The position numbers were made by a program, and so were the translations under genes. The notes below the pieces were generated by a model. It was not told the origin of the DNA and searched no databases. It saw only the letters and a program-made list of their open reading frames with translations. This document shows positions 117 to 38,776 of a stretch of 64,000 bases of DNA, one piece after another. Source of the stretch: Acidobacteriota bacterium (GTDB taxonomy: Bacteria > Acidobacteriota > Terriglobia > Acidiferrales > UBA7541); NCBI GenBank assembly GCA_013287135.1, contig JABDEK010000012.1:1-64000 (forward strand). The letters run 5' to 3'. Positions within the stretch are counted from its first letter, which is position 1. Each line of letters opens with the position of its first letter.

Positions 117-515
117 TTCGGCATCTTTTTTGACTCCTATCGTCAAGCTTGAACAGAAGGTAGAGAGCAGCCAGCGGCCTTTATTTCACTTACGTGTCCT
201 CTCCTTTTCGTTCTGCCCAGCAGGTCCGTGGGACCTATGGTCCCTGGACGCTCACATGACGCGGCCCCCCGCAGCAATTGTCAAAAGTGACAGGTCCGCT
301 GCCGTTAAGGCCAGGATGATCTGCAACTCCTTCCATGAGAAGGCCGGTGAGTGTCAAGCCATTTCTTTCATTTTTCGAGTCAGGAAGAGGCGTTGAAGTG
401 GCTTAAACAATGGCCCCGTTGAGTCGCCTTGAAAAATTTAAGATGAGATCAAACATACGGCGCAAACGCTGCGAATCCGTCAGAGCCTGGCGTTGCTGAG
501 GTTCGCGGTCTGCGA
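117..515. other. Intergenic stretch, about 400 bp
   Basis: No convincing gene is seen. A + frame open across 22-396 has low-complexity, Arg/Ser-rich translation without family resemblance and is treated as chance. The only clear element is the dyad site at 279-292. Confidence 0.5.
279..292 (-). promoter_or_regulatory. TGTCA-N4-TGACA dyad site 1
   Basis: The bases read TGTCAAAAGTGACA on +, which on the - strand is TGTCACTTTTGACA, the exact form seen before 22033 and 28040. The conserved AATT flank lies on its left, so it points left, out of the window. No target gene is assigned; it may control a gene before the window or be a relic. Confidence 0.6.
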
Positions 516-1283
516 TCAATGAGAACGCAAGGACTGTGAAAGCCTCGTTAGATTTTGCGCCTGCACGCGAACAATACCGCCGCGTGGGCTGTCAATGTCC
601 GCTATCAGTGAGAAAGAGATAGACACAATGAGAGGCAGGACGAGAAGCAACATAGTCTTCGCTGGCCCCCGACGCGCGCCATAACCGATCAATAGGTTAC
701 AACAGATGGCGATCGTCGCCATCAAACCCCATGCCGCATTTGGAATGCGGTTCCACCAGGCGGCTAGCGTAGATGCTTTGGAATTCAATACATCGTTCAT
801 TCCGGTGACAGCGATGGTTACCAGGGGAGTCGGCTGCGCGGCGGCCGGAGTCTGGACTGCGGACCAAAGGTCCGTTTCCAGTTGTGCGGTCGTTGCATCA
901 ATCTCTCTAAGATGACGGTCATCTCGGGTTTTATAGAATAAAATACGCTGGTCCAGATAGCTTTTTAGCAGCGAACGTACCCTTGCGGCATCGGCGGCAG
1001 GTAGGAAGTCTACTCGTACATACTCGGTGCCAATCGCATTTGCTTCTGCTTCTTCCAAATTTTTGCGTTGATCGTAGCGGGTGATCGCCATCGAAAAGCT
1101 AAACCCGATAATGAGGCCTAGCAGGGTTAGGATCGCAGCCATGATGATGCCGAAATCGTCTCGCTCATTTTCTTCCAGGCTTCGCCGTCTCTTGCGAAAA
1201 GAAACGCCGATCCGCACCGACAACCACAACATCACAAGAGAAAGAAACAAAACAATAAACGAAAATCTAAGTATGTAGTTCAT
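516..1283 (-). CDS. DUF4239 (bestrophin-like) membrane protein, copy 1
   Basis: A 255-residue inner-membrane protein. Hydrophobic segments lie near residues 5-23, 47-66, 185-204 and 210-230, separated by a charged loop of about 115 residues. The family hallmark is seen after the second segment (SMAITRYDQRKNLEEAEANA), followed by TEYVR and, near the end, IADIDSPRGG. This fits the DUF4239 family, whose function is not established; a distant bestrophin-like channel fold has been proposed. The start is supported by GGAGG nine bases upstream of the ATG. A close paralogue lies at 32925-33680, also on the - strand and also convergent with an upstream + gene. Confidence 0.8.
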   Translation of the reverse strand: MNYILRFSFIVLFLSLVMLWLSVRIGVSFRKRRRSLEENERDDFGIIMAAILTLLGLIIGFSFSMAITRYDQRKNLEEAEANAIGTEYVRVDFLPAADAARVRSLLKSYLDQRILFYKTRDDRHLREIDATTAQLETDLWSAVQTPAAAQPTPLVTIAVTGMNDVLNSKASTLAAWWNRIPNAAWGLMATIAICCNLLIGYGARRGPAKTMLLLVLPLIVSISFSLIADIDSPRGGIVRVQAQNLTRLSQSLRSH

Positions 1284-1473
1284 GAGTTACAACCTCCAGT
1301 CAAGTGGGGCCAATTTACGGCCTATTGCAGCGATAAACTGAATTACCCAGGCATTAGAGAGTTGTTCCGGAAGAAATGCGAGAAGCGCGGTGTACGAAAT
1401 TCGGCAGTCCGGATTGGTAGGGATGGAGTTTCTCCAAGGCTATAGCTGGCAAGCACTCACTTGAGCGCGCCGA

Positions 1474-2097
1474 TTAGATTATTTTTTCCTTTTCCAATTG
1501 TTGAACGATCAGTTTGGCAACTGCATCGATAGCCTTGGTCGGTGAACGAGGATTGACCGTATCGCTGGTTCCGGTCCAGATAAGTTCCCCATCTGCCTTG
1601 GTCGTCGAATAGAAATTCGTTTCAATTTGTGCGGTTTTGTCGACGCGGAGATAGTCGGGGGAATAGACGACCGGATAGATGGCGCCGTAATATCCATAGA
1701 AAGTATTGCAGTAAGGATAGGGAGTGTAAGCTTGGCCTGGAATATAGGTGACCTTCTTGTCCACTTTTACCAACCGAGAGGCCACGACCGCGTCAATATT
1801 TTGCCCGCGAATGATGTCCCTCAATTGATTTATATCAAATGGCGTCGAGTTCGGCCTTGGAAGAAGCGAATAGCTGGGAATAGCTTGAATTCCCGGCCTC
1901 GTGATCGCCGCGGAGAGTTGGTCTTCAAATTCGGCTCGGTTTTCTACCTTACCGTTTATGCCTAACACAAGAATGGTATGGAAGACTGCGCCAGAATAAC
2001 TGGGGTTAGTCCAAGTGAACACGAACTTCGTCGATTTACCGTTCAAAAATGTAAGGCTAGCCAGCACCACTAAAATCAAGATCACCCGTCTTCTCAA
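1474..2097 (-). CDS. Secreted protein of unknown function
   Basis: The frame is open from 2202, but the best start is a TTG at 2097 with AGGAG six bases upstream, which places a basic N-terminus and hydrophobic core (VILILVVLASLTFLNG) at the front as a signal peptide; 207 residues. The mature part contains FTWTNPSYSG near the front, a central VVASRLVKVDKK segment, a Tyr/Pro-rich stretch and a C-terminal strand GELIWTGTSDTV followed by a Lys/Glu helix. The layout loosely recalls DUF4136-type lipoproteins, but there is no Cys lipobox and I do not assign a family. A dyad site lies 214 bp upstream in matching orientation. Confidence 0.65.
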   Translation of the reverse strand: MRRRVILILVVLASLTFLNGKSTKFVFTWTNPSYSGAVFHTILVLGINGKVENRAEFEDQLSAAITRPGIQAIPSYSLLPRPNSTPFDINQLRDIIRGQNIDAVVASRLVKVDKKVTYIPGQAYTPYPYCNTFYGYYGAIYPVVYSPDYLRVDKTAQIETNFYSTTKADGELIWTGTSDTVNPRSPTKAIDAVAKLIVQQLEKEKII

Positions 2098-2310
2098 GCT
2101 ATCTCCTGCCCTCGTGGCACTCCGCTGAAACGAAATTCCCTCTAGAAGCGCCTGGTGACGAACGCTTGACCTTGTTGATCGGGCGCGCTTCGCCCAGGCC
2201 ATTGAAAAATTGAGGAACCCGGAAAGGCCAGGAGGTAGAGGGAAAATAACCCTCCGGGTCCCTTACGTCCAGCCTGTCCGACAATACGGTGCCACGTATC
2301 TGATGTGTAT

Positions 2311-2324
2311 TGTCAATACTAACA
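2311..2324 (-). promoter_or_regulatory. TGTCA-N4-TGACA dyad site 2 (one mismatch)
   Basis: The + strand reads TGTCAATACTAACA; the - strand reads TGTTAGTATTGACA followed by AT, matching the TGTTA variants at 25354 and 30815. It lies between the divergent genes at 1474-2097 and 2541-3377, and its orientation favours the former. Confidence 0.5.
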
Positions 2325-2439
2325 GTAGGAGGCAATTGTTCTATCCTCACCTAGGTCGCATCCCATAGGGCCCGAGAAACCTTCCGAAAGTCCGCTATCG
2401 TGTGCCGCTATCAGATCTGCTGAAGGTTTCGGATTCTCA

Positions 2440-2459
2440 ATATTGACAAAATTCAATAT
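2440..2459. promoter_or_regulatory. AT-rich inverted repeat before the aldolase gene
   Basis: ATATTG and CAATAT arms of six bases are separated by ACAAAATT. It lies 81 bp before the aldolase start. It contains a TTGACA half-site but not the full 14-bp dyad. It could be an operator or chance. Confidence 0.25.
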
Positions 2460-4542: not shown

Positions 4543-4546
4543 ATTT

Positions 4547-8689: not shown

Positions 8690-8703
8690 TGTCAGAATTG
8701 ACA
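8690..8703 (+). promoter_or_regulatory. TGTCA-N4-TGACA dyad site 3
   Basis: TGTCAGAATTGACA, followed by AATAA. Both half-sites are perfect. It lies 70 bp before the DUF1254 remnant, which is on the - strand, although the flank asymmetry points the other way. Confidence 0.6.
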
Positions 8704-9675: not shown

Positions 9676-9733
9676 GACCTACCAGGAATGTTCAATCACA
9701 GGGAAGATACGGCTCTCTCGCCGCAATGGACAC

Positions 9734-9747
9734 TGTTACTTCTGACA
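9734..9747 (+). promoter_or_regulatory. TGTCA-N4-TGACA dyad site 4 (one mismatch)
   Basis: TGTTACTTCTGACA followed by AATTCC. It lies 59 bp before the porin-like gene (- strand) and about 40 bp before the broken gene at 9788 (+ strand). Its orientation matches the latter. Confidence 0.6.
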
Positions 9748-9787
9748 ATTCCGCTGTAGCGGCAATCAAGAAACAAAATCGTCACGT

Positions 9788-10280: not shown

Positions 10281-10294
10281 TGTAAAAACTGACA
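10281..10294 (-). promoter_or_regulatory. TGTCA-N4-TGACA dyad site 5 (one mismatch)
   Basis: The + strand reads TGTAAAAACTGACA; the - strand reads TGTCAGTTTTTACA followed by AT. It lies 79 bp before the FGE start. Flank asymmetry points away from FGE, so it is one of the weaker assignments. Confidence 0.45.
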
Positions 10295-10372: not shown

Positions 10373-11566
10373 ATGACAAAAAGAGGTCGCCAGGAGAGAG
10401 CTTCCAAGGTCTCGAGGCAATCAAATTCGCTGAAAATTGTTATATGCCTTGCGGTGTTGCTGGCTGGATTCGGCTTCTGGCGGTATGCGGGCCGTTCTGT
10501 CCAAGCGACCAGGACCGCGGCGTCGGTGGTGACGGCTGAAGGACCGTCCGCTGGCAACAGCAACTTTGCTCCGACAGTCGAAAACAAGAATGCTCCGGCG
10601 CGTTCTGGTCCCGAAGGGATGGCTTGGATTCCCGGCGGTGAATTCTCCATGGGTGCTCAGGATCCACCAGGTAACGACGCCGTGGGCATGCAGGCCACAC
10701 TAGATTCGCGTCCGATTCACCGTGTGTACGTGGACGGCTTCTGGATGGATAAGACGGATGTGACGAACGCCGAGTTCGCGAAATTCGTCAAGGCCACAAG
10801 ATACCTAACGGTTGCGGAACGGAAACCGAAGGCTGAGGATTTTCCCGGCGCACCACCCGAAAATCTGGTGGCTGGTTCTGTAGTTTTTTCGCCGCCTGAT
10901 CATCCGGTTTCGTTGAACGATCACTACCAGTGGTGGTCTTACGTCCACGGCGCGAACTGGCGTCATCCGCTGGGCCCGAACAGTAGCATCCAGGGGAAAC
11001 AGGACTATCCGGTCGTGCAGATTGCGTATGAAGATGCCGCCGCTTATGCAAAATGGGCCGGGAAACGATTACCAACTGAGGCAGAGTGGGAATTCGCCGC
11101 ACGAGGCGGGCTAAGTGGAAAACCCTATGTTTGGGGAGACGAGTTTCGGCCGGGCGGTAAGTGGATGGCGAACACCTTTCAAGGTCAGTTTCCGACTAAA
11201 GATACCGGAGAGGACCATTACGTCGGCATAAGTGGAGCTGCGCGGTTTCCAGCGAACGGCTATGGACTTTACGATATGGCGGGGAACGTCTGGCAATGGA
11301 CAAGTGACTGGTATCGGCCGGATTATTACCAGCAATTGGTCGAGGCTGGGGGCGTAGCACGGAATCCCGAAGGTCCCGATGCGCCGTATGATCCGTCCGA
11401 ACCGAACGAGCGAAAGAAAACTCATCGCGGCGGATCGTTTTTATGCACCGATCAATACTGCTCGCGATATATGGTCGGCACACGGGGCAAGGGCGAGGTT
11501 AGCACCGGCACAAATCACTTGGGTTTTCGCTGCGTGAAAGAGCCGTCATCACACCCCGCACAATGA
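10373..11566 (+). CDS. Formylglycine-generating enzyme (sulfatase-modifying factor), membrane-anchored
   Basis: A 397-residue enzyme that oxidises a Cys in sulfatases to formylglycine, the catalytic aldehyde. An N-terminal anchor (about 20-38) places the FGE domain (about 80-390) outside the cytoplasm. Seen: MAWIPGGEFSMG at 83-94, FWMDKTDVTNAEFAKFV, RLPTEAEWEFAARGG, MAGNVWQWTSDW, and the active-site Cys358 and Cys363 in GGSFLCTDQYCSRY, followed by NHLGFRC. The two Cys fit the copper-dependent, oxygen-using class of FGE rather than generic C-type-lectin-like relatives, which lack them. The two sulfatases at 19225 and 28040 carry the target motif and are likely substrates, inferred from co-occurrence. 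Confidence 0.9.
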   Translation: MTKRGRQERASKVSRQSNSLKIVICLAVLLAGFGFWRYAGRSVQATRTAASVVTAEGPSAGNSNFAPTVENKNAPARSGPEGMAWIPGGEFSMGAQDPPGNDAVGMQATLDSRPIHRVYVDGFWMDKTDVTNAEFAKFVKATRYLTVAERKPKAEDFPGAPPENLVAGSVVFSPPDHPVSLNDHYQWWSYVHGANWRHPLGPNSSIQGKQDYPVVQIAYEDAAAYAKWAGKRLPTEAEWEFAARGGLSGKPYVWGDEFRPGGKWMANTFQGQFPTKDTGEDHYVGISGAARFPANGYGLYDMAGNVWQWTSDWYRPDYYQQLVEAGGVARNPEGPDAPYDPSEPNERKKTHRGGSFLCTDQYCSRYMVGTRGKGEVSTGTNHLGFRCVKEPSSHPAQ

Positions 11567-12165: not shown

Positions 12166-12179
12166 TGTCAGTTATGACA
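12166..12179 (-). promoter_or_regulatory. TGTCA-N4-TGACA dyad site 6, between membrane gene and regulator
   Basis: TGTCAGTTATGACA, both half-sites perfect, with AATT on its left so that it points to the membrane protein gene at 11578-12087. It lies 171 bp before the regulator start at 12351, so it could also serve autoregulation. Confidence 0.7.
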
Positions 12180-12276
12180 GTAAGTCGTTTCAGTCTGTTC
12201 AGAGGTCTGGCGAGCAATCCAGAAATTTGACTGGCATGTTGTGGCATACCGCGAAAACCTGTCACCTACTCCCTGT

Positions 12277-12292
12277 TGTACGTTGACGTACA
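12277..12292. promoter_or_regulatory. Palindrome TGTACGT-TG-ACGTACA before the regulator
   Basis: Seven-base perfect arms around a TG centre, 58 bp before the chosen regulator start. A dimeric regulator could bind it. It is a different sequence from the 14-bp dyad, so if it is real, a second factor acts here. Confidence 0.4.
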
Positions 12293-12350
12293 TAAGATGC
12301 GGTGGCATAATTCCCACCGTACTGAGGCTCCATACCCCGAGGTTCCCCCA

Positions 12351-13040
12351 ATGAGCCCGCCTCGCCGCTTACCGCGAACGCGGAATGCCCAAATACCGGC
12401 GAATCGTTTTGATGCTGTAGCCTTTTTAGCAAATACTGGTATCGGCAGGACCCTTCATCGATATAAACCAAAACAAACAATCTTTTCTCAAGGAGAGCGC
12501 CCGGACGCTGTGTTTTACATTCAGGAAGGCAGAGTGCGGGTCAGTGTGTTGTCTAAATTCGGTAAAGAGGCAACCATCACGCTGCTTGGTCCCGGCGATT
12601 TTTTGGGTGAAGGATGCATCGCCTCGGATCAATCAGTCCGCGTTTCGACAGCAACGGCTCTATCAAACTGCTCTCTCCTAAGAGTTGACCGGAATGAGAT
12701 GCTGCGCACGCTCCACGGGGAGAACATTTTCTCTGACATGTTCGTTGCATATGTAGTTAAACGTTACAACCGCACCGAAGCCGATTTGGTCGATCAGCTC
12801 TTCAATTCGAGTGAAAAGCGATTGGCACGAGCTCTACTAACCCAGGCCCGCTTCGGAAAAACCGGAAAGCCCCAAGCAGTGATACCAAATATAAGCCAGA
12901 AGACCCTCGCGGAGATGATCGGTACGACTCGCCAACGAGTGAATTTTTTTATGAACCGATTCAAAAGGCTCGGCCACATTAAGTACAACGATGGATTGCA
13001 GGTACATCGCTCGCTTCTGAGCGTCGTTCTCCATGAATAG
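12351..13040 (+). CDS. Crp/Fnr family transcriptional regulator
   Basis: The frame opens earlier, but ATG 12351 has GAGG eight bases upstream and gives a normal 229-residue protein. A cyclic-nucleotide-type beta barrel spans about 20-125 (FSQGERPDAVFYIQEGRVRV, GPGDFLGE), a dimer helix follows, and a winged helix-turn-helix covers about 155-225 (ISQKTLAEMIGTTRQRVNFF). The recognition helix has RQRV where classical Crp has RETV. Only two cysteines are in the sensor half, so no Fnr-type 4Fe-4S cluster is expected; the Arg-Ser pair that binds cAMP phosphate in Crp is not apparent. The effector is unknown. It is the best local candidate to bind the recurrent dyad. Confidence 0.85.
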   Translation: MSPPRRLPRTRNAQIPANRFDAVAFLANTGIGRTLHRYKPKQTIFSQGERPDAVFYIQEGRVRVSVLSKFGKEATITLLGPGDFLGEGCIASDQSVRVSTATALSNCSLLRVDRNEMLRTLHGENIFSDMFVAYVVKRYNRTEADLVDQLFNSSEKRLARALLTQARFGKTGKPQAVIPNISQKTLAEMIGTTRQRVNFFMNRFKRLGHIKYNDGLQVHRSLLSVVLHE

Positions 13041-13345: not shown

Positions 13346-16300
13346 ATGGATGCCGTCAGTCGCTCCTCATGGAACCTCTGGGAGCCGAATTCCATTTTTC
13401 GCGCAGCCACTTTAGTTTGTGCTGTTGCCGGCTTAGCTTACCTAGCTGCAAGGCTCGGAGGTGCACTGGTCTTATATCCCCAAAACGTTTGGCCGCTGTG
13501 GCCCGGTTGCGCACTTATCGTGTCCGTATTATTGCTGGTACCGCGTAAGAGCTGGTTACCACTCATCGCCGCAGCTTTTGCAGCATTTGCTATCTACGAT
13601 CTGCAGGCGGGTGTGCCGGCAGGCATGATTCTCCGCCTGATTCTCGCTGACGTGGTAGAAGTCGTCTCGGTAGCCTTGTTGGTCAGCTATTCCTTCAAGG
13701 GAGTGCCCAAGCTAGATAGCATAAGGGCTCTGACCAAGTATTCTTTCTTTGCAGCATTCGTAGCGCCCATCGTTGCATCGTTTCTCGGGGCGCTTGCCTG
13801 GCATGGCAGTTATTGGATTAGTTGGAAGGTTAGCTTTTTATCGGAAGCCATAGCTTTCCTAACTGTCCCGCCTGCTATTTGGGGATGGGCGAGCGGGAGT
13901 TCGGCACGGCCACGGAAATCACATGCGTACTGGCTCGAAGCGGGGGCGCTGCTTTTCGCGCTGATGCTTTTTGGATGGTTAACTTTCGTAGCACTCAAGA
14001 CCAGCAGTCCGCCTATACTGCTTTATTGTTTCGTACCCTTTCTGCTGTGGGCCGCTTTACGTTTCGGATTGACAGGTGTAGCTACTTCGATGCTTGTCAT
14101 CGCCTTACTGTCGATTTGGGGCGCTATCCACGGACGTGGTCCCTTCACCGGGCAAGGAACGCTCGAAAATGTATTATCGCTGCAACTATTTTTATTGTTC
14201 GCAACAGTGCCCTTTATGGTCTTCGCGGCCCTTGCCGAGGAGCGCCAAAGAACAGTAGCGGACCTGCGGGAAGACGAAGAGCGAATACGCTTGGGGATGG
14301 CAGCCGCCAAAATGATGGGGTGGGAATGGGACATCAAGAGCGGGCGCAACCCTTGGTCCGGTGAGACGCGTACAGTGATGGGGATGTCGTCGGCCGATAC
14401 CTCTGGCTCCATACAGGATTTTTGGGATCGTGTGCATCCGGAAGACTATGATCAACTTTCGAAGGCTCTTGAAATTGCAAAACGGGACCACCTGGAGTTT
14501 GAACACGAATTTCGCGTGATTTGGCCAGACAAGACCGTGCACTGGCTGCGGTCGGCAGGCAGATTTTTCTATACAGTCCGGGGCGTGCCTGAACGCATGA
14601 TGGGTGTTTTGCGAAATATCACGGTTCGCAAGCTTGCGCTCGAGGCGGTGCGGCAGAGAGAGGCGGAACTCAGGGAGGCTCAGCGCCTGGCTAAGATTGG
14701 TAGCTGGAAGTGGGATATTGAAACCGATACGGTGATTTGGTCAGAAGAACTGTATCGGATCGCTGGACGCGATCCTAATCTGCCGGCGGTGAGCTATCAG
14801 GAACATCGAGAACTCTACACGCCCGAAAGCTGGGAACGGCTGCAACGCGTTGTAGAAGAAGTATTACGGACGGGAACCCCATACGAACTCGACCTGGAGA
14901 TGATTCGCTCGGATGGGGCCAAACTATGGCTCGTGGCTCGCGGCGAGGCGCTACGCGATTACACGGGGCGCATCGTGCACCTCCACGGCACAGTGCAGGA
15001 CATCACCGAGCGCAAGCGAGCGGAAGAAGAACTGCGCGAAAGCGAGGAAAGGTTTCGCAGCGTCTTCCAGGATGCTGGTGTAGGTATGCTGATTGTTTCA
15101 CCGGAAGGCCGTTTTTTTGCCGGCAACCAGGCATTTTCTAAATTCATTGGATATACAGAAGAGGAACTTCTGGGCCTTACGGTTCAGTCGATCACGCATC
15201 CGGACGACTGGCCGATGTTTTCGCAGAGGTTAATACAAGCACTCTCGGATGGGCTCTGCTTCCAAGGCGTGGAGGAGCGCTATTTGCACAAGAATGGACA
15301 AGTGCTTTTTGCGGAATGCAGTGCTTGCGTGATCCGAGATGTCGACGGCAAGCCTCAGTACTTTGTTGCCGAGGTGATAGATATCACGGGACGCAAGCGA
15401 GCTGACCAGACTCTGCGCGAGAGCGAAGAACGCTTTCGCTTAGTCGCCGACAAAGCTCCAGTTTTGATGTGGATGTCCGGAAGGGAGAAGCTGTGTACTT
15501 TTTTCAACCAAGGCTGGCTAGACTTCACCGGCCAGTCGATGGAGCACGAGATCGGCGAAGGTTGGGTCGCGGGGGTGCATCCCGAAGACCTGACGCGTTG
15601 TCTCGGAATCTACGAAGCTGCGTTTGACGCCCGGGCCGACTTCGAGATGGAGTATCGGCTGAGACGCTTCGATGGCAAATATCGATGGATTGTTGACTAT
15701 GGCGTGCCCAGGTTTGAATCCGATGGCTCCTTCTGTGGCTATATCGGGTCTTGCATTGATATTACGGACCGCAAGGTGTCCGAAGCGTCACTCGAAGAGT
15801 TAAGCGGACGCTTGATCAATGCTCAAGAGCAAGAACGTACCCGTATCGCCAGGGAACTGCACGACGACTTCAGCCAGCGCCTGGCTCTTCAGGGAATCGG
15901 CCTAACCCAGTTATGGAAGAAACTTCCCGAGACAGAAGTGGAGGAGCGAGCTAAAGTTCAGGAGCTAATGAAGAGAACCCAGGAAATCTCTTCCGATTTG
16001 CATTCGCTCTCCCATCAACTGCACTCCAGCAAGCTCGAGCATGTCGGCCTGGCGTCTGCCTTGAAGGGCCTTTGTGAGGAAATGAGCTCGAGATTTAAGA
16101 TTAAGATTGAGTTTACCGAGCGCGCAATTTCCTGCGAAATCCCGAAGGATGTGGCGCTGTGTCTCTTCCGAATTAGTCAGGAAGCCTTAGGCAACGTGGT
16201 TAAACATAGCCGGGCTGAGCAAGCCCGGGCTGAGCTCTGTGACGAAGATAATGAAATTCGTCTGCGGATCGTGGATGCTGGTGTGGGTTTTGATCCTGCG

Positions 16301-16456
16301 GCGCTCAACGGAAAAACGGGATTAGGACTGATCAGTATGCGCGAACGACTTCGACTGGTAGGCGGAAGACTTGCGGTACAATCCGCGCCCATGCTTGGCA
16401 CAGAAATTGTCGCCGAAGTCCCGTTGTCTGTCTTTACTAATTTGAGTCAGAGTTAA
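13346..16456 (+). CDS. MASE1 sensor histidine kinase with four PAS domains (HisKA_3 type)
   Basis: A 1036-residue membrane kinase. The N-terminal 300 residues hold about eight hydrophobic segments of the MASE1 sensor type (ARLGGALVLYPQNVWPLWPG). Four PAS/PAC units follow at about 310-425, 440-555, 565-685 and 690-810 (each ending near ITERKRAEEE-like linkers). The dimerisation domain is of the NarX/DegS kind with phosphoacceptor His839 in ARELHDDFSQRLA, and the ATPase has DAGVGFDP and GLGLISMRERL. The NarL-type regulator 27 bp downstream is the evident partner. The stimulus, possibly redox or a small molecule sensed through PAS, is not known. Confidence 0.92.
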   Translation: MDAVSRSSWNLWEPNSIFRAATLVCAVAGLAYLAARLGGALVLYPQNVWPLWPGCALIVSVLLLVPRKSWLPLIAAAFAAFAIYDLQAGVPAGMILRLILADVVEVVSVALLVSYSFKGVPKLDSIRALTKYSFFAAFVAPIVASFLGALAWHGSYWISWKVSFLSEAIAFLTVPPAIWGWASGSSARPRKSHAYWLEAGALLFALMLFGWLTFVALKTSSPPILLYCFVPFLLWAALRFGLTGVATSMLVIALLSIWGAIHGRGPFTGQGTLENVLSLQLFLLFATVPFMVFAALAEERQRTVADLREDEERIRLGMAAAKMMGWEWDIKSGRNPWSGETRTVMGMSSADTSGSIQDFWDRVHPEDYDQLSKALEIAKRDHLEFEHEFRVIWPDKTVHWLRSAGRFFYTVRGVPERMMGVLRNITVRKLALEAVRQREAELREAQRLAKIGSWKWDIETDTVIWSEELYRIAGRDPNLPAVSYQEHRELYTPESWERLQRVVEEVLRTGTPYELDLEMIRSDGAKLWLVARGEALRDYTGRIVHLHGTVQDITERKRAEEELRESEERFRSVFQDAGVGMLIVSPEGRFFAGNQAFSKFIGYTEEELLGLTVQSITHPDDWPMFSQRLIQALSDGLCFQGVEERYLHKNGQVLFAECSACVIRDVDGKPQYFVAEVIDITGRKRADQTLRESEERFRLVADKAPVLMWMSGREKLCTFFNQGWLDFTGQSMEHEIGEGWVAGVHPEDLTRCLGIYEAAFDARADFEMEYRLRRFDGKYRWIVDYGVPRFESDGSFCGYIGSCIDITDRKVSEASLEELSGRLINAQEQERTRIARELHDDFSQRLALQGIGLTQLWKKLPETEVEERAKVQELMKRTQEISSDLHSLSHQLHSSKLEHVGLASALKGLCEEMSSRFKIKIEFTERAISCEIPKDVALCLFRISQEALGNVVKHSRAEQARAELCDEDNEIRLRIVDAGVGFDPAALNGKTGLGLISMRERLRLVGGRLAVQSAPMLGTEIVAEVPLSVFTNLSQS

Positions 16457-16483: not shown

Positions 16484-17122
16484 ATGAAGCGCCCACGTGT
16501 ACTGCTTGCAGACGACCATCAGATGTTGCTGGATGCGCTCGAGAGTCTCCTGGAACCCACCTATGAAGTCGTGGGCTTGGTAACCGATGGACGTGCGCTT
16601 CTGAAAGCTGCCGAGAAGTTGCGACCTGACATCATCGTACTCGACATCGCGATGCCCCAGTTGAACGGGCTGGATGCCGGCCGACAACTCAAACAATCAA
16701 TACCGAGCATAAAGCTCATCTTCATGACAATGAACGAAGATCCTTATCTGGTAGGGGAAGCGTTTCGAGCGGGTGCTTCGGCGTACTTGCTTAAGCAGGC
16801 AGCAGGGCTAGAGCTAAACGAGGCAATCCAGAGAGTACTGAAAGGTGGTTCCTATGTAACGCCGAGTGTGGCGAAAGGTCTCGGCGATATCTCTACGAGA
16901 GATCCGAAGAACCGTGAGCTCGCGCCCGAGCCTACTGCGCGGCAGCGGGAAGTCATTCAATTATTGGCGGAAGGCCGCACCATGAAAGAAATAGCAAGCC
17001 TTCTCTACATTACTCCGCGGACCGTCGCTGCTCACAAGTACACCGCTATGGAATTGTTACACGTAAAGACTAGCGCCCAGTTGATACAGTACGCCATCAA
17101 GCACCGGATCATCTCCGTATAG
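16484..17122 (+). CDS. NarL/FixJ-type response regulator
   Basis: A 212-residue DNA-binding regulator. The receiver (about 4-120) has Asp10-Asp11, phosphoacceptor Asp54 (VLDIAMPQLNG), Thr in FMTMNED and Lys in YLLKQAAG. The LuxR-type helix-turn-helix (about 145-205) has PTARQREVIQLLAEGRTMKE and TPRTVAAHKYTAMELL. AGGAGG precedes the ATG. It is co-transcribed with the MASE1 kinase and is its probable phosphate acceptor. Target promoters are not visible. Confidence 0.92.
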   Translation: MKRPRVLLADDHQMLLDALESLLEPTYEVVGLVTDGRALLKAAEKLRPDIIVLDIAMPQLNGLDAGRQLKQSIPSIKLIFMTMNEDPYLVGEAFRAGASAYLLKQAAGLELNEAIQRVLKGGSYVTPSVAKGLGDISTRDPKNRELAPEPTARQREVIQLLAEGRTMKEIASLLYITPRTVAAHKYTAMELLHVKTSAQLIQYAIKHRIISV

Positions 17123-19091: not shown

Positions 19092-19105
19092 TGTCACTTT
19101 TGCCA
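19092..19105 (+). promoter_or_regulatory. TGTCA-N4-TGACA dyad site 7 (one mismatch)
   Basis: TGTCACTTTTGCCA followed by ATAACATC, close to the ATTACATC flank of other copies. It lies 120 bp before the sulfatase start at 19225 and points towards it. Confidence 0.65.
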
Positions 19106-19224
19106 ATAACATCCCGCGTGCGCAACGAACAGAATCGCGGCGCTCGCGAAGCTTGATCTGGCCCTTCCGCTGAAATTCGGCCCTCGTCATCGCGCTGCCG
19201 ATCGGAAAAAATAGGAGAATGTGC

Positions 19225-21879: not shown

Positions 21880-21893
21880 TGTCACTTTTGACA
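21880..21893 (+). promoter_or_regulatory. TGTCA-N4-TGACA dyad site 8 (perfect)
   Basis: TGTCACTTTTGACA preceded by CC and followed by ATTCCATC. It is 140 bp before the porin-like gene at 22033 and points to it. Confidence 0.75.
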
Positions 21894-25353: not shown

Positions 25354-25367
25354 TGTTACTTTTGACA
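25354..25367 (+). promoter_or_regulatory. TGTCA-N4-TGACA dyad site 9 (one mismatch)
   Basis: TGTTACTTTTGACA followed by GTTACATT. It is 99 bp before the first DUF3300 gene and in the same orientation. Confidence 0.7.
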
Positions 25368-25465: not shown

Positions 25466-26824
25466 ATGGAAAGGTCGAGCATGCTTGTTAAACAAACAAT
25501 TATTGTGATCCTTGCGGTTTGCATGAATATGAGCCTTGCAGGCGGAGCCCCAGCATTCTTTCAGTCGGCAGACTCGGCCGCATCGTCGCCGGAACAACTC
25601 GATAAACTTCTTGCTCCGGTCGCGTTGTACCCGGACGCCTTGCTCATGCAAGTTTTAGCGGCTTCGGTGGACTCCCAGGAAGTTCTCGACGGAGGGAACT
25701 GGCTGTTGCAGAACAAGACTCTGGATGGAACCCAACTCGACACAGCTGCGAAGAGCGCAGGGTTTGGTCCTGCTATGATCGCCTTATTTCATTTCCCTCA
25801 AGTGGTTGACATGATGTGCTCGGAGATTGACTGGACCAAGCAGCTTGGCGCGGCGTTCACTGCGAGCCAGAGCGCGGTTCTCGACTCGGTCCAGCGGCTT
25901 CGGCTCCAGGCGAAACAAGCTGGTAATCTGCAAACCACTCCGCAACAAACGGTGGTTACACAACAAGCGGGCACCCAGCAGGTGATCGTCATCCAGCCTG
26001 CAAACCCTCAAATAATTTACGTGCCGCAATATAATCCGGTGCAAGTGTATGTTGCGCCCGCGCCTGCACAGCCGGCAACCGGTCTAATCGTTGCATTCGG
26101 TGTTGGCGTCGCGGTCGGCGCCATGTTCAGCAGTAACAATTATTATTACCCGCATTGGGGTTACGGTGGCGGAGTGTACTACCGAGGCGGCCCCTGGGTA
26201 GTAAATCATTATGTTTACCGTCCCGTTTATGGCCCAAACTATCATCGCGCGACGCTTTACTATCGTCCGCCAAATTATGCGTACGCCTACAACCGGCCGT
26301 ATCCAGGGAACGTGCACTACAATTCGAGCAACTACTACAACAATTATCGCGGCGGCTCGAACAATCAAAACAAGAGCAACAACACCATTAATCGAAACGT
26401 TAGCGGGAATAACGTCACGATCAATACCGGCAGCCAGGTCAACAATCAGGGTAATAAGACACGAAACTCGACTACGAACAGCGGTAACACGCAGTCGAAT
26501 CAAAGTTGGAAAGGGCAATCGACGTACAACAGCGGAAATAAGAATAATGGAAACTCGGTTAACAACGCGTCGAGGAATCCATCGACAACGAACGCTAGAC
26601 CTAATTCTTCGGGACAGGCAAATACTCAAGCCGTGAAGCCAGACCGAGGCTATTCGCCTAGCTCGCCCAATTCATCCCATGCGGCATCAACTCAGAAACC
26701 GGCCGCTCAAGCGCAAAGCCGGCCAGCAGGCGCATTTGAAGGAGCCGGAAACAACGGCAAATCAGAGAGAAGCGCCAGCCAACGTGGCGCAGCGAGCACG
26801 CAGGGAAGAAGGGGAAAACAATGA
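25466..26824 (+). CDS. DUF3300 secreted protein, copy 1
   Basis: A 452-residue exported protein; AGGAGG precedes the ATG. The conserved DUF3300 domain covers about 40-230: EQLDKLLAPVALYPDALLMQ, FGPAMIALFHFPQVVDMM, DWTKQLGAAFTASQSAVL and PANPQIIYVPQYNPVQVYV, followed by a hydrophobic Gly-rich segment (TGLIVAFGVGVAVGAMF). The C-terminal 200 residues are Tyr/Asn/Ser-rich, repetitive and probably disordered, suggesting wall or surface association. Family function is unknown. Its stop overlaps the start of the DUF2950 gene by four bases, so the two are translationally coupled. Confidence 0.88.
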   Translation: MERSSMLVKQTIIVILAVCMNMSLAGGAPAFFQSADSAASSPEQLDKLLAPVALYPDALLMQVLAASVDSQEVLDGGNWLLQNKTLDGTQLDTAAKSAGFGPAMIALFHFPQVVDMMCSEIDWTKQLGAAFTASQSAVLDSVQRLRLQAKQAGNLQTTPQQTVVTQQAGTQQVIVIQPANPQIIYVPQYNPVQVYVAPAPAQPATGLIVAFGVGVAVGAMFSSNNYYYPHWGYGGGVYYRGGPWVVNHYVYRPVYGPNYHRATLYYRPPNYAYAYNRPYPGNVHYNSSNYYNNYRGGSNNQNKSNNTINRNVSGNNVTINTGSQVNNQGNKTRNSTTNSGNTQSNQSWKGQSTYNSGNKNNGNSVNNASRNPSTTNARPNSSGQANTQAVKPDRGYSPSSPNSSHAASTQKPAAQAQSRPAGAFEGAGNNGKSERSASQRGAASTQGRRGKQ

Positions 26825-27774
26825 CATTTCAACACACGGTTTGTCTTCACGCATGCAAACTGGCAATGCTTTCGTTGATAGCTCTGTTGGGGCCGGTGAC
26901 CACGGTGCCGCTGATGGCGCAAGCAATCAGTGGGCAGAAAACTTTCGTTTCATCTTCGGAAGCCGTTCAGGCTTTGGTCACGGCAGCTCGTTCGGGCGAT
27001 CCCGCCGAACTCGAGCCACTACTCGGGTCGCAAGCGAAGGAGCTAATAGCATCGGGCAATTTGGGCGACGCAAAACAAGTTCTCGCAGACTTCGTTAAGG
27101 CTTATGGGCAGAAACATTCGATCTCGGTTGAAGCACAAGGTATTGAATACCTGCAAGTGGGGCCGGGTAACTGGCCCTTCCCGTTTCCGATCGTCCGCGA
27201 TGGCAAGATGTGGTATTTCGACGTCGATCGTGGCAATGAAGAAATCGTCTATCGTCGAGTCGGCCGGAACGAACTAGGTGCAATTGCCGTCTGTGAAGGC
27301 TATGTGCAAAGTCAGATCGAATATGCCTCCCATGGACATGACGGCAATCCAAGTGGCGTTTATGCATCAAGATTTCACAGTGATGCGGGTGAACAGGATG
27401 GTCTTTATTGGGGTACGTCGGAAGGTAAACCCGCCAGCCCCATGGGTCCTTTGGTCGCGGACGCGGCGGCCGCAGAGCCACAGCAATCCGGAGCAACCAC
27501 AACGCCCTATTACGGTTACCTTTATAAGATACTCACCGCGCAGGGGCCGGAAGCCGAGGGAGGCGCGAAGAGCTACATCGTAGATGGAAAACTGACGGGA
27601 GGCTTTGCTTTGATTGCCTACCCGGCTCACTACGGTTCAAGCGGCATCATGACTTTCATCGTCAACCAAGACGGTGTCATATATCAGCAGGATCTCGGTG
27701 ACAACACGGCTGACCTCGCATCTCAGATCACTGCTTACAATCCCGATAGCTCCTGGAATGCGGCTCAAGACTGA
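26821..27774 (+). CDS. DUF2950 secreted protein, copy 1
   Basis: A 317-residue exported protein coupled to DUF3300 through the overlap at 26821-26824. The signal peptide ends at LMAQ. Family marks: KTFVSSSEAVQALVTAARSG, LLGSQAKELIASG, WPFPFPIVRDGKMWYFD, EEIVYRRVGRNELGAI, QDGLYWGTSEGKPASPMGPL, YYGYLYKILTAQGP, TGGFALIAYPAHYGSSGIMT and a closing NPDSSW. Nearly every DUF2950 gene I know sits beside DUF3300; the pair probably works together at the envelope. Function unknown. Copy 2 is at 40342. Confidence 0.9.
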   Translation: MTFQHTVCLHACKLAMLSLIALLGPVTTVPLMAQAISGQKTFVSSSEAVQALVTAARSGDPAELEPLLGSQAKELIASGNLGDAKQVLADFVKAYGQKHSISVEAQGIEYLQVGPGNWPFPFPIVRDGKMWYFDVDRGNEEIVYRRVGRNELGAIAVCEGYVQSQIEYASHGHDGNPSGVYASRFHSDAGEQDGLYWGTSEGKPASPMGPLVADAAAAEPQQSGATTTPYYGYLYKILTAQGPEAEGGAKSYIVDGKLTGGFALIAYPAHYGSSGIMTFIVNQDGVIYQQDLGDNTADLASQITAYNPDSSWNAAQD

Positions 27775-27874: not shown

Positions 27875-27888
27875 TGTCACTTTTGACA
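27875..27888 (+). promoter_or_regulatory. TGTCA-N4-TGACA dyad site 10 (perfect)
   Basis: TGTCACTTTTGACA followed by ATTACATC. It is 152 bp before the second sulfatase start and points to it. Confidence 0.75.
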
Positions 27889-28039
27889 ATTACATCTGAT
27901 AACCATTTGGGCGAGCATCGCGAAGCTTGTGACTTCGTCGGAGTGGATCACACTTCGCGCCGCGCGAAACAATCGCGTTAGTCAAACACAAAACTTGTAA
28001 GGTCGCGGTGACGTGTCCAAGAAATCGAGGGAGATTACC

Positions 28040-29605
28040 ATGACGCGAAGAGTGAGCATAGTCTGTATTATCTGCTCAGTATTGCTTACAGCGTTTGGAG
28101 CGAATGCTCAGCAGAAAAAACCCAACATTCTCGTCATCATGACCGATGACGTCGGCGTTTGGAATATCAGCGCCTATCATCGCGGGATGATGGGGGGCCG
28201 AACGCCCAACATCGACCGCATAGCCAACGAAGGGGCGCTTTTCACAGATTACTACGCCCAGCAGAGCTGCACGGCGGGGCGCGCCGCGTTTATTACGGGA
28301 CAGCATCCCTTCCGTACCGGTCTTTTGACCGTCGGCATGCCCGGTTCGCCTCTTGGCTTGCAGAAAGAAGACCCTACAATCGCCGATCTGCTCAAGCCCC
28401 TCGGATACATCAGCGCCCAAATTGGCAAGAACCACCTCGGCGACCGCAACGAATTCCTGCCCACGGTTCACGGATTCGATGAATTTTACGGAAACCTCTA
28501 CCACCTGAATGCCGAGGAGGAGCCGGAAGACCCGGACTACCCGAAATTACCCGCCTTTCACGAAAAGTTCGGGCCGCGCGGTGTGCTTCGTTGCGTCGCG
28601 TTGACTTCTGACAATCCGACACCCGCCGACCCACGATTTGGCGCCTGGGGCAAACAGAAGTGCGAAGACACCGGTCCGCTAACTCGCGAGCGAATGGAGA
28701 CGGTTGAAGAAGACCTGCTCCAGGTCTCGCTCGATTTCATGGACAAATCCGCGAAAAGCGGAAAGCCATTCTTTCTTTGGCACAACACCACGCGCATGCA
28801 TGTCTGGACCCGTTTGAGCCCGCAGTGGGAAAACAAGAGCGGTTACGGTCTGTACGCGGACGGGATGATGGAACTGGATTGGGTCGTCGGCCAGCTTCTG
28901 AAAAAACTCGATGACCTGGGCATCGCCGACAACACCATTGTTGTGCTGACCTCGGATAATGGCGCCGAAAAGTTTACCTGGCCGGACGGCGGTACCGAGC
29001 CTTTTCGCGGAGAAAAGGGCACCACTTGGGAGGGTGGGTTCCGCGTACCTTGCGTGGCTCGCTGGCCCGGCGTCATCAAGCCGAACACCATCATCAACGA
29101 CATCGCTTCGCATGAAGACTGGGCACCTACTTTCCTCGCCGCAGCTGGTGCGCCGAACGTGAAGCAGCAACTGCTCACAGGTTATCGGTCCGGTGACAAG
29201 ACCTTCAAAGTTCACCTCGACGCCTATGACATGACCGACGTGCTCTCCGGTAAAGGACCCGGCCAGCGCAAGGAGATTTTCTATTTCGACGATTCAGGAA
29301 GCCTGAATGCGTTTCGCTACGGCGACTGGAAAGTCACGTTTGCTACCAAGGATTCCTGGTGGGCCGACGTTGCGAAACCCCGTACCGTGCCACTAGTGAT
29401 TAACCTTCGGCAGGACCCTTTCGAAGTGACGATGGATTCCCAGTTGTACGCCCGTTGGTATGGAGACAAGCTCTGGGTCATGGTTCCCGCCCAGGCCATC
29501 GTAGGACAATTCCTTATGAGCTTCAAAGAATTCCCACAACGGCAGAAATCTGCGTCCGTTAACATTCAACAAGTGCTGGATCAGATGAAGACGCAAACCG
29601 ACTGA
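28040..29605 (+). CDS. Secreted arylsulfatase, copy 2
   Basis: A 521-residue exported sulfatase. The frame opens at a GTG at 28013, but ATG 28040 has GAGGGAG at the right distance and starts the signal peptide (ending ANAQ). MTDDVG is at 34-39, the formylglycine target is Cys77 in QQSCTAGRAAF, and IGKNHLGDRNE, FLWHNTTRMHVWTR, TSDNGAE and GGFRVPCVARWPG complete the site. Long stretches are identical to copy 1, such as GVWNISAYHRGMMGGRTPNI, so the two arose by duplication. The central region (about 165-215) and the tail differ, which may change the substrate. Confidence 0.92.
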   Translation: MTRRVSIVCIICSVLLTAFGANAQQKKPNILVIMTDDVGVWNISAYHRGMMGGRTPNIDRIANEGALFTDYYAQQSCTAGRAAFITGQHPFRTGLLTVGMPGSPLGLQKEDPTIADLLKPLGYISAQIGKNHLGDRNEFLPTVHGFDEFYGNLYHLNAEEEPEDPDYPKLPAFHEKFGPRGVLRCVALTSDNPTPADPRFGAWGKQKCEDTGPLTRERMETVEEDLLQVSLDFMDKSAKSGKPFFLWHNTTRMHVWTRLSPQWENKSGYGLYADGMMELDWVVGQLLKKLDDLGIADNTIVVLTSDNGAEKFTWPDGGTEPFRGEKGTTWEGGFRVPCVARWPGVIKPNTIINDIASHEDWAPTFLAAAGAPNVKQQLLTGYRSGDKTFKVHLDAYDMTDVLSGKGPGQRKEIFYFDDSGSLNAFRYGDWKVTFATKDSWWADVAKPRTVPLVINLRQDPFEVTMDSQLYARWYGDKLWVMVPAQAIVGQFLMSFKEFPQRQKSASVNIQQVLDQMKTQTD

Positions 29606-30814: not shown

Positions 30815-30828
30815 TGTTACTTTTGACA
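30815..30828 (+). promoter_or_regulatory. TGTCA-N4-TGACA dyad site 11 (one mismatch)
   Basis: TGTTACTTTTGACA, preceded by CC and followed by ATTAGCAA. It is 59 bp before the secreted-protein gene at 30887, the closest spacing in the set for a same-orientation pair. Confidence 0.72.
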
Positions 30829-30886
30829 ATTAGCAACCGAGACGAGTTCTGTCATCGTGCAGTCGCCCAGGGTGGAGCCGGTGCAT

Positions 30887-32132: not shown

Positions 32133-32158
32133 TGAACGTGACGAAGGAGAGAAAGAAT

Positions 32159-33680: not shown

Positions 33681-34098
33681 GGACTGTTAGTGCTTCATAC
33701 TAACTAGATTTTGGCCGCGGATCGTACCCAGCTGATCTTGCACAGTCATGTTTCCACTCGTAATGATGCATTAAGACGGGGCATGAAGGCTCCGCTAACA
33801 TATGCCAGAAAACGGTATCGTTCAATTGTTAAAACTTAAAGGTCTCGGAGTGCAGCTTATTTTCTTGTCGAATTGAATGCCTTCCCGTTTACGCAAATCC
33901 GTCGAGCTTCACTCCCTTAGCCGCGAGGTCAGCACCGGTCACCCAGTCCTGGTAGTTTTGACAATGTCAGAACTGCCTTTCGTTTCCTACCATGTTCGGA
34001 TGACGATCGGCCCTGGAAAACAGCGATGCTTCCGTGCCTATCGCTTTGATTTGAATCCACAAGGGCGCCGAACGGCTGGACCGATAAAAGCTGATTAC
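33681..34098. other. Divergent intergenic stretch
   Basis: A + frame is open from ATG 33877, but its translation up to about 34098 has no family resemblance and would put 75 residues before the signal peptide of the next protein. I treat it as noncoding leader. It contains dyad site 12 at 33950-33963. Confidence 0.45.
33950..33963 (+). promoter_or_regulatory. TGTCA-N4-TGACA dyad site 12 (two mismatches)
   Basis: TGGTAGTTTTGACA, preceded by CC and followed by ATG. The right half and flank fit; the left half deviates. It is 136 bp before the chosen start at 34099, within the spacing range of the other sites, which supports that start over ATG 33877. Confidence 0.45.
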
Positions 34099-37825: not shown

Positions 37826-38069
37826 CGCCACACTCCTTCCGTCGGTATTATATAAGCGTATAAGCCCGTAACGCCTCATGAACTTTTAAGGTGGACAGGG
37901 TCGCACAGAGGAGCTTCGGGGCTCGCGGGATTGCTCCCGAGTGATCGGCAAGAACGAAGCCGCAACTTGGAAGTGATTCCACCTGATTAGCCGGACATCA
38001 ACCAAAGCCACTCGAGTGTAGGGGCCGACATTGTTATCGCGCTGGGAAAGGCTTGGAAGAGGAGGAACC
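37826..38069. other. Upstream region of the carbonic anhydrase gene
   Basis: No gene is seen. It contains GC-rich dyads (CACTCGAGTG at 38009-38018; GGGATTGCTCCC at about 37928-37939). Frames on the - strand across 37886-38347 are Arg/Ser/Pro-rich and look like chance translation of hairpin-rich DNA. Confidence 0.35.
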
Positions 38070-38630
38070 GAAGATGAGGAGGTGAAACCTCTTGATGGAG
38101 TCCAGCGGGTGCAAGTCCCGTACGGCCAAAGCAAGCATGCAGGCCGGGAGCGAGTGATTCCATTCACCGGGCGACTGGTGAGTGCGAAGCGTAGACAGCA
38201 AAGAAGCAGGCCGCGAAGATTCAGCTCCGAAAACCGGCTCATCGCGATGCCGATGCTGCTAACAAGGCGGAAGGCAGCATCCAGACGACCGATACTGCGA
38301 GGTCGCGCCGGGGTCGCCCGAGTCACTAGCTCGGGGCATTTTTCCAAAGGGATTCCCCAGGAACCCAGGAGAGCTCGCTATCTCTGCTCGCAATAGCGGA
38401 AACGCGGTGGCCAGGGGCGACCGGAGGCGACTGCATACGGATGGACCTAAACGGGCACACAGCTGGAAACGGCGGATACAGCCAAGGAAGACCTACAGCG
38501 CGCCGGGTTCTCCTCTACTCGGATGGTGCAGCAACGCTAGCTGTCATTCCAAAGGGTGAAAGTCCTTTTGGCAGAACAGTCCAGTAACTGTCGCATGGAC
38601 GGCAATTTGTTGCCCGCCATCCGCGAAGCT
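38070..38630 (+). ncRNA. Hairpin-rich region, possible structured RNA or group II intron/HEARO-like relic
   Basis: Neither strand gives a recognisable protein, yet strong local hairpins follow one another: GAGG/CCTC around TGAAA near 38078-38091; CGGG/CCCG (38106-38109 with 38117-38120) around TGCAAGT; GATGCTGC/GCAGCATC (38252-38259 with 38274-38281); CCCGAG/CTCGGG (38317-38322 with 38330-38335); AAAGG/CCTTT (38551-38555 with 38564-38568) around GTGAAAGT; GGCAA/TTGCC (38601-38605 with 38610-38614). The loops GTGCAAGTCC and GTGAAAGTCC are purine-rich on the + strand and recall group II intron or HEARO/omega-RNA elements. No reverse transcriptase or HNH gene and no intron domain V were found. 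The class is a guess. Confidence 0.35.
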
Positions 38631-38762
38631 CTCACCGGCCGTATTTTTCTTTCCGGAAGGGGCGAGTATCAGAACTAAGGGTCTTGTCACGGAACAAGGG
38701 TACCTAGGGCTCGCACTGATCAGGATTTAATCTTCGGCGTTCTTACCGGGCTGAAAGCGACC

Positions 38763-38776
38763 TGTCACTTTTAACA
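38763..38776 (+). promoter_or_regulatory. TGTCA-N4-TGACA dyad site 13 (one mismatch)
   Basis: TGTCACTTTTAACA, preceded by CC and followed by ATTACATC. It is 207 bp before the second DUF3300 gene, pointing to it; no site was found further right in the window. Confidence 0.68.

Follow-up and report, generated by a model that had tools for sequence, protein, structure and literature searches.

The inverted repeat TGTCA-N4-TGACA, which recurs between the genes of an island of envelope and secreted proteins, is very probably the operator of a NarL/FixJ-family response regulator (16484-17122), which would act as a kinase-controlled activator of this island. Comparison of the sequences shows that the dyad is associated with the clade of this regulator and keeps a preferred distance to a -10-like element.

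The window, i.e. the whole 64-kb stretch of DNA that was analysed, contains 5 exact copies of the dyad (279, 8690, 12166, 21880, and 27875) compared to 0.05 in shuffles. Together with 9 one-mismatch copies this gives 14 copies with at most one mismatch versus 1.4 expected, which confirms the observation. The first 39 kb hold 13 of the 14 (5 exact, 8 with one mismatch), and the remaining one-mismatch copy at 57830 looks like chance. The original prediction had listed 13 copies and none after 38.8 kb. From this list 5 exact and 7 one-mismatch copies stand, while 33950 has two mismatches (TGGTAGTTTTGACA) and 2435 had been missed; the second statement holds apart from the copy at 57830. The sites and the target genes assigned by Pfam are as follows.

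279..292, dyad, exact; close to the end of the contig
2311..2324, dyad, 1 mismatch; TATTGT as -10-like element on the minus strand at 2281-2286, towards gene 1474-2202 (-)
2435..2448, dyad, 1 mismatch; 100 bp ahead of a class II aldolase gene, without a full TANNNT at the expected place
8690..8703, dyad, exact; ahead of gene 8246-8620 (-)
9734..9747, dyad, 1 mismatch; ahead of Phenol_MetA_deg porin-like gene 8749-9675 (-), -10-like TATCTT at 9704-9709 (-)
10281..10294, dyad, 1 mismatch; ahead of the FGE gene, -10-like TAATTT at 10319-10324 (+)
10373..11566, +, FGE (sulfatase-modifying factor) gene
12166..12179, dyad, exact; flanked by a 169-aa gene 11578-12087 (-) and the CRP, kinase, and regulator genes (+)
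19092..19105, dyad, 1 mismatch; ahead of the sulfatase on the next line
19219..20856, +, sulfatase
21880..21893, dyad, exact; ahead of porin-like gene 22033-23052 (+)
25354..25367, dyad, 1 mismatch; ahead of the pair on the next line
25466..27774, +, DUF3300 and DUF2950 genes
27875..27888, dyad, exact; ahead of the sulfatase on the next line
28013..29605, +, sulfatase
30815..30828, dyad, 1 mismatch; ahead of gene 30857-31474 (+)
33950..33963, dyad, 2 mismatches; at the 5' end of an Omp85-like ORF (called start 33877), -10-like TACCAT at 33988-33993 (+)
38763..38776, dyad, 1 mismatch; ahead of the pair on the next line, -35-like TTACAT, -10-like TAAAGT at 38801-38806
38938..41307, +, DUF3300 and DUF2950 genes

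Within the first 39 kb, all 13 copies that are exact or have a single mismatch lie outside called genes; 21% of the bases there are non-coding. This bears out their predicted placement between genes, although some fall inside unselected frames of the mechanical ORF list (9734 in 9696-10166 (-) and 279 in 22-396 (+)). At the 12 first-39-kb sites with a suitable gene, the dyad centre is 66-224 bp from the gene start, in agreement with the claim that the dyads point to nearby starts; these starts are approximate, as the genes were called by a simple home-made caller. For the Omp85-like ORF a later start than the called one is plausible, and its dyad at 33950 has a perfect TACCAT at the same position found for other sites. 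When every 5-mer dyad with gaps of 0-12 was counted in the intergenic DNA of the window, TGTCA-N4-TGACA ranked first with 5 copies and no other was found twice. It was also the top dyad in the stretches of relatives, which had been fetched for holding dyads. Together with its extension CTGTC-N6-GACAG it was jointly top both in 11 selected loci with dyads and across the full set of 79 loci of regulator relatives (24 and 25, compared to shuffle maxima of 2-3 and 4-7). Across the genome (4.38 Mb, 79% complete) there are 12 exact dyads, 11 of which are intergenic, and 0 copies of the reversed pattern.

The original prediction described a regulon of exported proteins. By a home-made rule, a signal-peptide-like start was found for 61 out of 112 genes behind dyads and for 140 of the 333 remaining genes at these loci (p 0.03), which is weak support for this idea. 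However, such genes abound in the first 46 kb of the window whether or not they have a dyad (27 out of 38 versus 1 out of 14 beyond). "Exported" fits the island more than the regulon, and the notion of an export-specific regulon is weakened. Outside the window, Pfam covered 96 of 98 target genes, the two over 900 aa being left out. DUF3300 and DUF2950 are reported elsewhere to be co-localized, equipped with signal peptides, induced in root nodule bacteria, and of unknown function (PMC4653623).

The gene cluster that encodes the regulator comprises the following features, all assigned by Pfam.

12276..13040, +, CRP/FNR-family regulator with cNMP_binding and HTH_Crp_2 (start 12351 according to our own caller)
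13346..16456, +, sensor histidine kinase with MASE1, PAS domains, HisKA_3, and HATPase_c; proposed partner of the regulator
16484..17122, +, response regulator (P0002) with receiver and LuxR/NarL-type HTH (Response_reg, GerE), recognition helix TPRTVAAHKYTAM
17285..17692, +, stand-alone receiver protein of the same cluster (Response_reg)

The original prediction named no regulator; the best candidate now is the response regulator 16484-17122. Its receiver (Response_reg, 1.5e-24) and C-terminal LuxR-type HTH (GerE, 1e-11) are accompanied by an adjacent kinase of the HisKA_3 type (HisKA_3 4.6e-08, plus HATPase_c). The residues D10, D11, D54, T82, and K104, which we take to be the phospho-acceptor residues of the receiver, are invariant in 9 aligned regulator sequences. 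The helix of the window regulator reads AAHKY, the commoner form being AFHKY. The related genome G011 keeps the kinase-regulator gene order (kinase 72% over 484 residues, regulator 75%), and the order kinase-regulator-receiver is also seen in G011, G035, and G005.

Among 41 genomes (our own and 40 relatives), the helix-codon pattern was present in 4 (G000, G008, G010, and G011), each with 5-12 exact dyads. At least 5 exact dyads were thus found in 4 out of 4 genomes with the pattern versus 1 out of 37 without it (Fisher p 5e-5), the single case being G029 with 7 exact dyads. From 80 loci of regulator relatives drawn from genome_contigs 79 were counted, since L198 is on the same contig as G011:C3. 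Exact dyads were located at 10 out of 21 A-type-helix loci compared to none of the 58 others (p 2e-7). When one mismatch was allowed, there were 61 sites in 334 kb of A-type loci versus 20 in 818 kb of the others. Among the A-type loci 11 are without an exact dyad, including 3 without any even at one mismatch. Dyad-bearing loci of regulator relatives include those of Nitrospira (5 sites, 4 exact), Granulicella (10), and gp2 Acidobacteria (9). A restriction to Acidobacteriota does not hold, because regulator relatives and dyads also occur together in Nitrospirota and Pseudomonadota loci. As several phyla have relatives of the putative activator next to this palindrome, a switchable gene set may be predictable from sequence alone.

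The A-type helix forms one group in the tree, hence the link between helix and dyad is close to one evolutionary contrast. Phylum-wide, at least 4 exact dyads are present in 54 out of 338 genomes that lack the strict helix pattern (hand count), which indicates that other factors or chance produce them too. Held-out regions picked by helix alone contained 1 exact dyad and 9 sites with at most one mismatch (6 intergenic) in 139 kb, compared to 1 site in 90 kb of control; L215 and L216, which by their length are contigs already included (L146 and L208), do not enter these counts, and the remaining contigs are presumed new by length. This weakly agrees with the association.

Promoter geometry was analyzed in sites from the window, 4 own and 14 relative stretches, and 15 of the 21 A-type loci, the relatives' stretches having mostly been chosen for holding exact dyads. 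From 110 intergenic sites 105 had a suitable gene, in 95 cases within 350 bp. A TANNNT was located exactly +31.5 bp from the dyad centre in 33 of these 95 gene-oriented sites, the same set in which the offset was first noticed, whereas other offsets gave a mean of 0.86 and a maximum of 8, and the reversed orientation as control gave 4. Where only a single direction was possible the figures were 15 out of 45 versus 0 out of 45. In other species 18 out of 44 sites had the element at +31.5, as had 2 out of 6 held-out sites at the expected place; in the window, only 5 out of 14 sites have a full TANNNT there in either direction. A fixed spacing between operator and -10, as for an activator overlapping the -35 (class II-like), is hence present. 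This supports the fixed promoter architecture put forward in the original prediction. The alternative offered there, recent copying of whole promoter blocks, is not supported, since the flanks beyond the promoter elements are unrelated (25-28% identical on average, 12 window sites compared). The reported asymmetric context ATTACATC is shared only loosely, being exact at 27875 and 38763 and similar at 19092, 21880, and 25354. We predict that it represents the -35 of dyad promoters, where the activator would sit.

The full operator would be the 18-bp palindrome ACTGTCA-N4-TGACAGT, in a more degenerate form in this genome. Upon stimulation, the kinase 13346-16456 would phosphorylate the regulator, which then may bind as a dimer. 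The dyad centre would be located about 43.5 bp ahead of the transcription start, and a weak -35 hexamer would begin with the last T of the palindrome, separated by 17 bp from the -10-like TANNNT. From the -35 the bound regulator would recruit RNA polymerase, thereby switching on sulfatases and FGE, DUF3300/DUF2950 pairs, porins, and often its own neighborhood. Binding, phosphorylation, activation rather than repression, and the start site are inferred from these sequence features.

CRP/FNR proteins use short inverted repeats as binding sites, and the exact dyad at 12166 is located just upstream of the CRP/FNR-family gene 12276-13040, an arrangement kept in G011. That this protein binds the dyad nevertheless is improbable. 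Homologs (E <= 1e-20) are present in 16 of the 41 genomes, 13 of them outside the four dyad-rich ones of this genus, yet none was found in G010 (82% complete) with its 5 exact dyads. The 28 CRP-homolog loci (about 3.5 kb each, 98 kb) contain 1 dyad site and 0 exact dyads. Given this absence of co-occurrence, the CRP-family gene was rejected as dyad binder. In 11 out of 12 regulator loci no called gene best-matches the window CRP, and L140 has one with 24%. Moreover, the dyad at 12166 may belong to the divergent 169-aa gene instead; the G011 paralog of this gene has a dyad as well.

There is likewise little chance that the dyad is bound by some other product of the island, be it the receiver 17285, the BarA-like hybrid kinase pair 3343-8194, or a sigma factor, with the response regulator merely travelling along. 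These genes adjoin, and G011 has kept the hybrid kinase, but Pfam finds no DNA-binding domain in the receiver, the hybrid kinase, or the SpoIIE-type protein, the dyads accompany the response regulator at loci without most of the island, and the operator sequence varies with its helix. It is very improbable that the dyad is part of a promoter element for an alternative sigma factor, or a structural or repeat element without dedicated activator, although the preferred -10 distance speaks for this. The dyad is a two-fold palindrome, and sister regulators are accompanied by a sister version with identical geometry, which suits a dimeric activator rather than a sigma factor. A dispersed repeat would be expected to have similar flanks, which in the window are dissimilar.

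This sister version, ACTAGG-N6-CCTAGT, has the same spacing as the dyad and was found (at most 2 mismatches) at 27 out of 31 loci of sister regulators with K-type helix versus 5 out of 48 others. Within the Nitrospirota it was present at 23 out of 24 KTVE loci versus 1 out of 12 RTVE loci. ACTGTCA-N4-TGACAGT was the top dyad in A-type loci and ACTAGG-N6-CCTAGT in KTVE loci; RTVE-type loci gave no dyad above shuffles, with N runs cluttering the count in some. With somewhat less than even confidence, we suggest that the clade is a natural specificity series in which the change of the helix from KTVE to RT[VI]A tracks that of the operator from ACTAGG to ACTGTC in one frame (ACT, then three variable bases and N6, followed by the mirror image), with dimer spacing and -10 distance kept (the latter clearly for the ACTGTC form), and that regulator, operator, and island spread jointly between phyla as a portable regulon. 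If so, target sets could be read from the regulator helix alone. For uncultured bacteria few regulons are known. Here, an island whose envelope proteins (DUF3300/DUF2950, sulfatase/FGE sets) are uncharacterised is assigned a regulator together with an operator and a promoter geometry, and the relation between helix and operator is directly testable for a large regulator family.

Neither the motif nor the regulon was found among the matches listed from one open-access library. VraR, which likewise joins a receiver to a LuxR-type HTH, gave the best match among solved structures (5hev, as labelled; 152 bits with profile A1); it is a Gram-positive cell-wall stress regulator with different operators. 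The CrbR acetate regulon (ACTU motif) is reported to be also defined by a conserved inverted repeat and a LuxR-family response regulator, but differs in repeat and target genes (PMC5715377). BarA-UvrY likewise involves a FixJ-family regulator and an 18-bp inverted repeat of 6-N6-6 geometry. In contrast, the UvrY half-site is TGTAAG (operator TGTAAG-N6-CTTACA) instead of ACTGTC, and the csrB repeat is centred at -183/-182 instead of the predicted -43.5 or so (PMC4682653). The UvrY operator was not the top dyad in A-type or KTVE loci, and our regulator reached 100.6 bits with the UvrY/SirA/GacA NCBIfam equivalog (cut-off 280). NarL belongs to the same two-domain family (profile match of 135.9 bits to 1a04), but its recognition helix is STVKVHVK, with K188, V189, and K192 as contact residues, compared to RTVAAHKY here. 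Its two 7-base elements also form an inverted repeat, although of 7-2-7 instead of 7-4-7 arrangement and other sequence. At the ogt1052 promoter, activation is reported from just one NarL site, which is located at -44.5 and thus 32 bp above the -10 and is enough for NarL-dependent induction (PMC9314961).

The dyad TGTCA-N4-TGACA is present in five exact copies in the window against 0.05 expected from shuffles, and in 14 copies with at most one mismatch against 1.4 expected. Thirteen of these 14 are located in the first 39 kb and, according to our own gene caller, all 13 are extragenic in a region with a non-coding share of 21%, with some dyads overlapping unselected ORFs of a mechanical ORF list. 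Hence, the original observation of a dyad repeated between genes in this region was confirmed. A motif-free count of all 5-mer dyads in the intergenic DNA of the window also ranked this dyad top with 5 copies, all others reaching at most one. Within the 4.38 Mb genome 12 exact copies were found, 11 of them intergenic, 5 in the window and 3 on contig C38; the reversed control pattern was absent (0 copies).

Pfam agrees with the proposed gene identities (FGE, two sulfatases, two DUF3300/DUF2950 pairs, Phenol_MetA_deg porin-like genes and an Omp85-like gene) and added DUF4136, YceI and carbonic anhydrase families. Two regulators and two further signalling genes were assigned by Pfam in the dyad block:

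12276-13040, CRP/FNR-family protein, regulator in the dyad block
13346-16456, MASE1-PAS histidine kinase, alongside the response regulator
16484-17122, NarL/FixJ-type response regulator, regulator in the dyad block
17285-17692, stand-alone receiver, alongside the response regulator and kinase

A BarA-like hybrid histidine kinase with an Hpt domain (4547-8194) adjoins the gene of a receiver-SpoIIE phosphatase protein (3343-4542). Both are kept together in G011, a genome of the same genus (70% identity over 715 residues and 75%, respectively), and the stretch 3343-8194 is a second signalling pair of the island. The window G+C content, taken in 4-kb steps, is about 53% up to 40 kb versus about 55% in the remainder, which is compatible with an acquired island. 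A 169-aa gene (11578-12087) without a match in Pfam and its G011 paralog (L070:15809-16345, 32% identical) each carry an exact dyad upstream.

Among 41 genomes (our own, G000, and 40 relatives), the codon pattern of the response regulator's recognition helix was present in exactly four, G000, G008, G010 and G011, which contain 12, 9, 5 and 6 exact dyads. 36 of the other 37 genomes have 0 to 3 (helix pattern versus at least 5 exact dyads, Fisher p 5e-5). CRP homologs (E <= 1e-20) occur in 16 of the 41 genomes, 13 of them outside these four, and none was found in G010 at this threshold. G011 keeps much of the block, with identities of 63% for the CRP, 72% for the kinase (over 484 residues) and 75% for the regulator. 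Dyads there stand at the same sulfatase, in the gap between the CRP and 169-aa genes, and ahead of a DUF3300 gene. G008 and G010 retain several targets plus the regulator (54 and 51% identical); the stretches examined there contain no close CRP. In a phylum sample of 347 genomes, a hand count gave at least 4 exact dyads in 8 of 9 genomes with the strict helix pattern versus 54 of 338 without (Fisher p 5e-6).

In G008, an exact dyad lies about 76 bp ahead of the start of a different CRP-like protein (L073:17679-18287, contig C119), whose gene is truncated at the contig end. The remaining relative, G029, has 7 exact dyads without a helix match. Several of these have a GC-rich centre, for example TGTCACCGGTGACA, and the factor involved is perhaps another one whose half-site is similar. 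The reversed control ACAGT-N4-ACTGT reached 26 and 23 exact copies in G161 and G219 of the phylum sample, both of genus g61, and at most 8 in the other listed genomes; there it is another dyad family.

Scanning species genomes with a profile of the regulator alignment yielded at least 592 candidate stretches, of whose best 80 loci 79 were analysed, L198 being already represented. The recognition-helix position tested is A in 21 (20 RT[VI]A, one GTVA), as in the window regulator (RTVAAHKY), and another residue in 58. Exact dyads were found in 10 of the 21 A-type loci versus none of the 58 others (p 2e-7). With at most one mismatch, the A-type loci among the best 80 contain 61 dyads in 334 kb (53 intergenic) and the non-A loci 20 in 818 kb (5 intergenic). 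Control loci of CRP (28 loci, 98 kb) and of other NarL-type regulators (21 loci, 74 kb) gave 1 and 3 dyads, none exact. An intergenic dyad lies less than 500 bp from the regulator gene in 9 of 12 loci mapped gene by gene, and in one Nitrospira locus four exact dyads accompany relatives of the sulfatase (50%) and of FGE (63%). A single branch of the regulator tree (support 100/89) sets apart the A-type helix, whose members come from Acidobacteriota, Nitrospirota, Pseudomonadota and Verrucomicrobiota. Thus, the link between helix and dyad is close to a single evolutionary contrast, whatever the number of loci. Eleven held-out regions from 7 other genomes, selected solely by the helix codon pattern, contained 9 dyads with at most one mismatch in 139 kb (1 exact, 6 intergenic), compared to 1 in arbitrary stretches totalling 90 kb from five of these genomes; 2 of the 6 had a TANNNT box at the expected offset. 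The direction was the same, with a far smaller effect than in the islands; it seems that many A-type regulators have only one or a few operators nearby.

The motif-free count also yielded ACTAGG-N6-CCTAGT, which shares the outer ACT and the spacing with the ACTGTC form. Among the best 80 loci it was found (at most 2 mismatches) in 27 of 31 with K for R in the helix versus 5 of 48 others and, among the Nitrospirota, in 23 of 24 KTVE versus 1 of 12 RTVE loci; the motif was discovered and tested in the same loci, helix labels being unused in discovery. RTVE loci gave no outstanding dyad in such a count. The KTVE label requires five changes on the regulator tree, at least three of them forced by well-supported branches. 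Probably, this 18-bp dyad is the operator of the KTVE sister clade; Nitrospira examples near KTVE-type regulators lie among loci L144-L211 (e.g. L181, L211 and L175).

Each of 95 intergenic dyads was oriented to the closest suitable gene no more than 350 bp away. In 33 of them a TANNNT box occupies exactly +31.5 to +36.5 relative to the dyad centre, compared to a mean of 0.86 and a maximum of 8 (at the adjacent base) at other offsets and 4 with orientation reversed. Sites with a single possible direction gave 15 of 45 versus 0 of 45 reversed, and the box recurred in our own genome (5/18), its relatives (10/33) and other species (18/44). The ACTAGG sites share the best offset with a weaker signal (7/35, reversed 4). 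A -10 hexamer at -12 to -7 would place the dyad centre at about -43.5, and with a 17-bp spacer the -35 hexamer would occupy +8.5 to +13.5, its first base being the last T of the palindrome. This predicted hexamer reads TTACAT at 25354, 27875 and 38763 in the window, which explains the ATTACATC context originally noted. The preferred offset supports the suggested fixed promoter architecture. Counting either direction, 5 of the 14 window sites have the full TANNNT. The copy proposed at 33950 has 2 mismatches, yet its -10-like box is perfect and correctly spaced. The arrangement has a precedent in E. coli NarL, for which one site at -44.5 is enough for activation (PMC9314961).

Of the 98 target genes that lie beyond the window, 96 were searched with Pfam; the most frequent matches were response-regulator receivers (11), Sigma70_r4_2 (7, a model that hits the LuxR-type HTH of the window regulator too) and GerE (6), followed by cNMP_binding (5), DUF3300, HTH_Crp_2 and outer-membrane beta-barrels (4 each). 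Hence, besides envelope proteins and sulfatase sets, regulators are themselves among the recurring targets. Signal-peptide-like starts, by a home-made rule, were only mildly commoner in targets (61 of 112) than in other genes (140 of 333), so that a regulon of exported proteins is weakly supported. The first 46 kb of the window form an island of such proteins (27 of 38 genes signal-peptide-like versus 1 of 14 beyond).

By its domain content the window regulator is a member of the NarL/FixJ family. It scored below the cut-off of all 25 NCBIfam models listed, of 90 matched; the best among them was MctR (144 bits versus a cut-off of 300). Among the matches listed from one open-access library, none described this motif or such a regulon. 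By geometry, the nearest known operator found is that of UvrY, TGTAAG-N6-CTTACA (PMC4682653).
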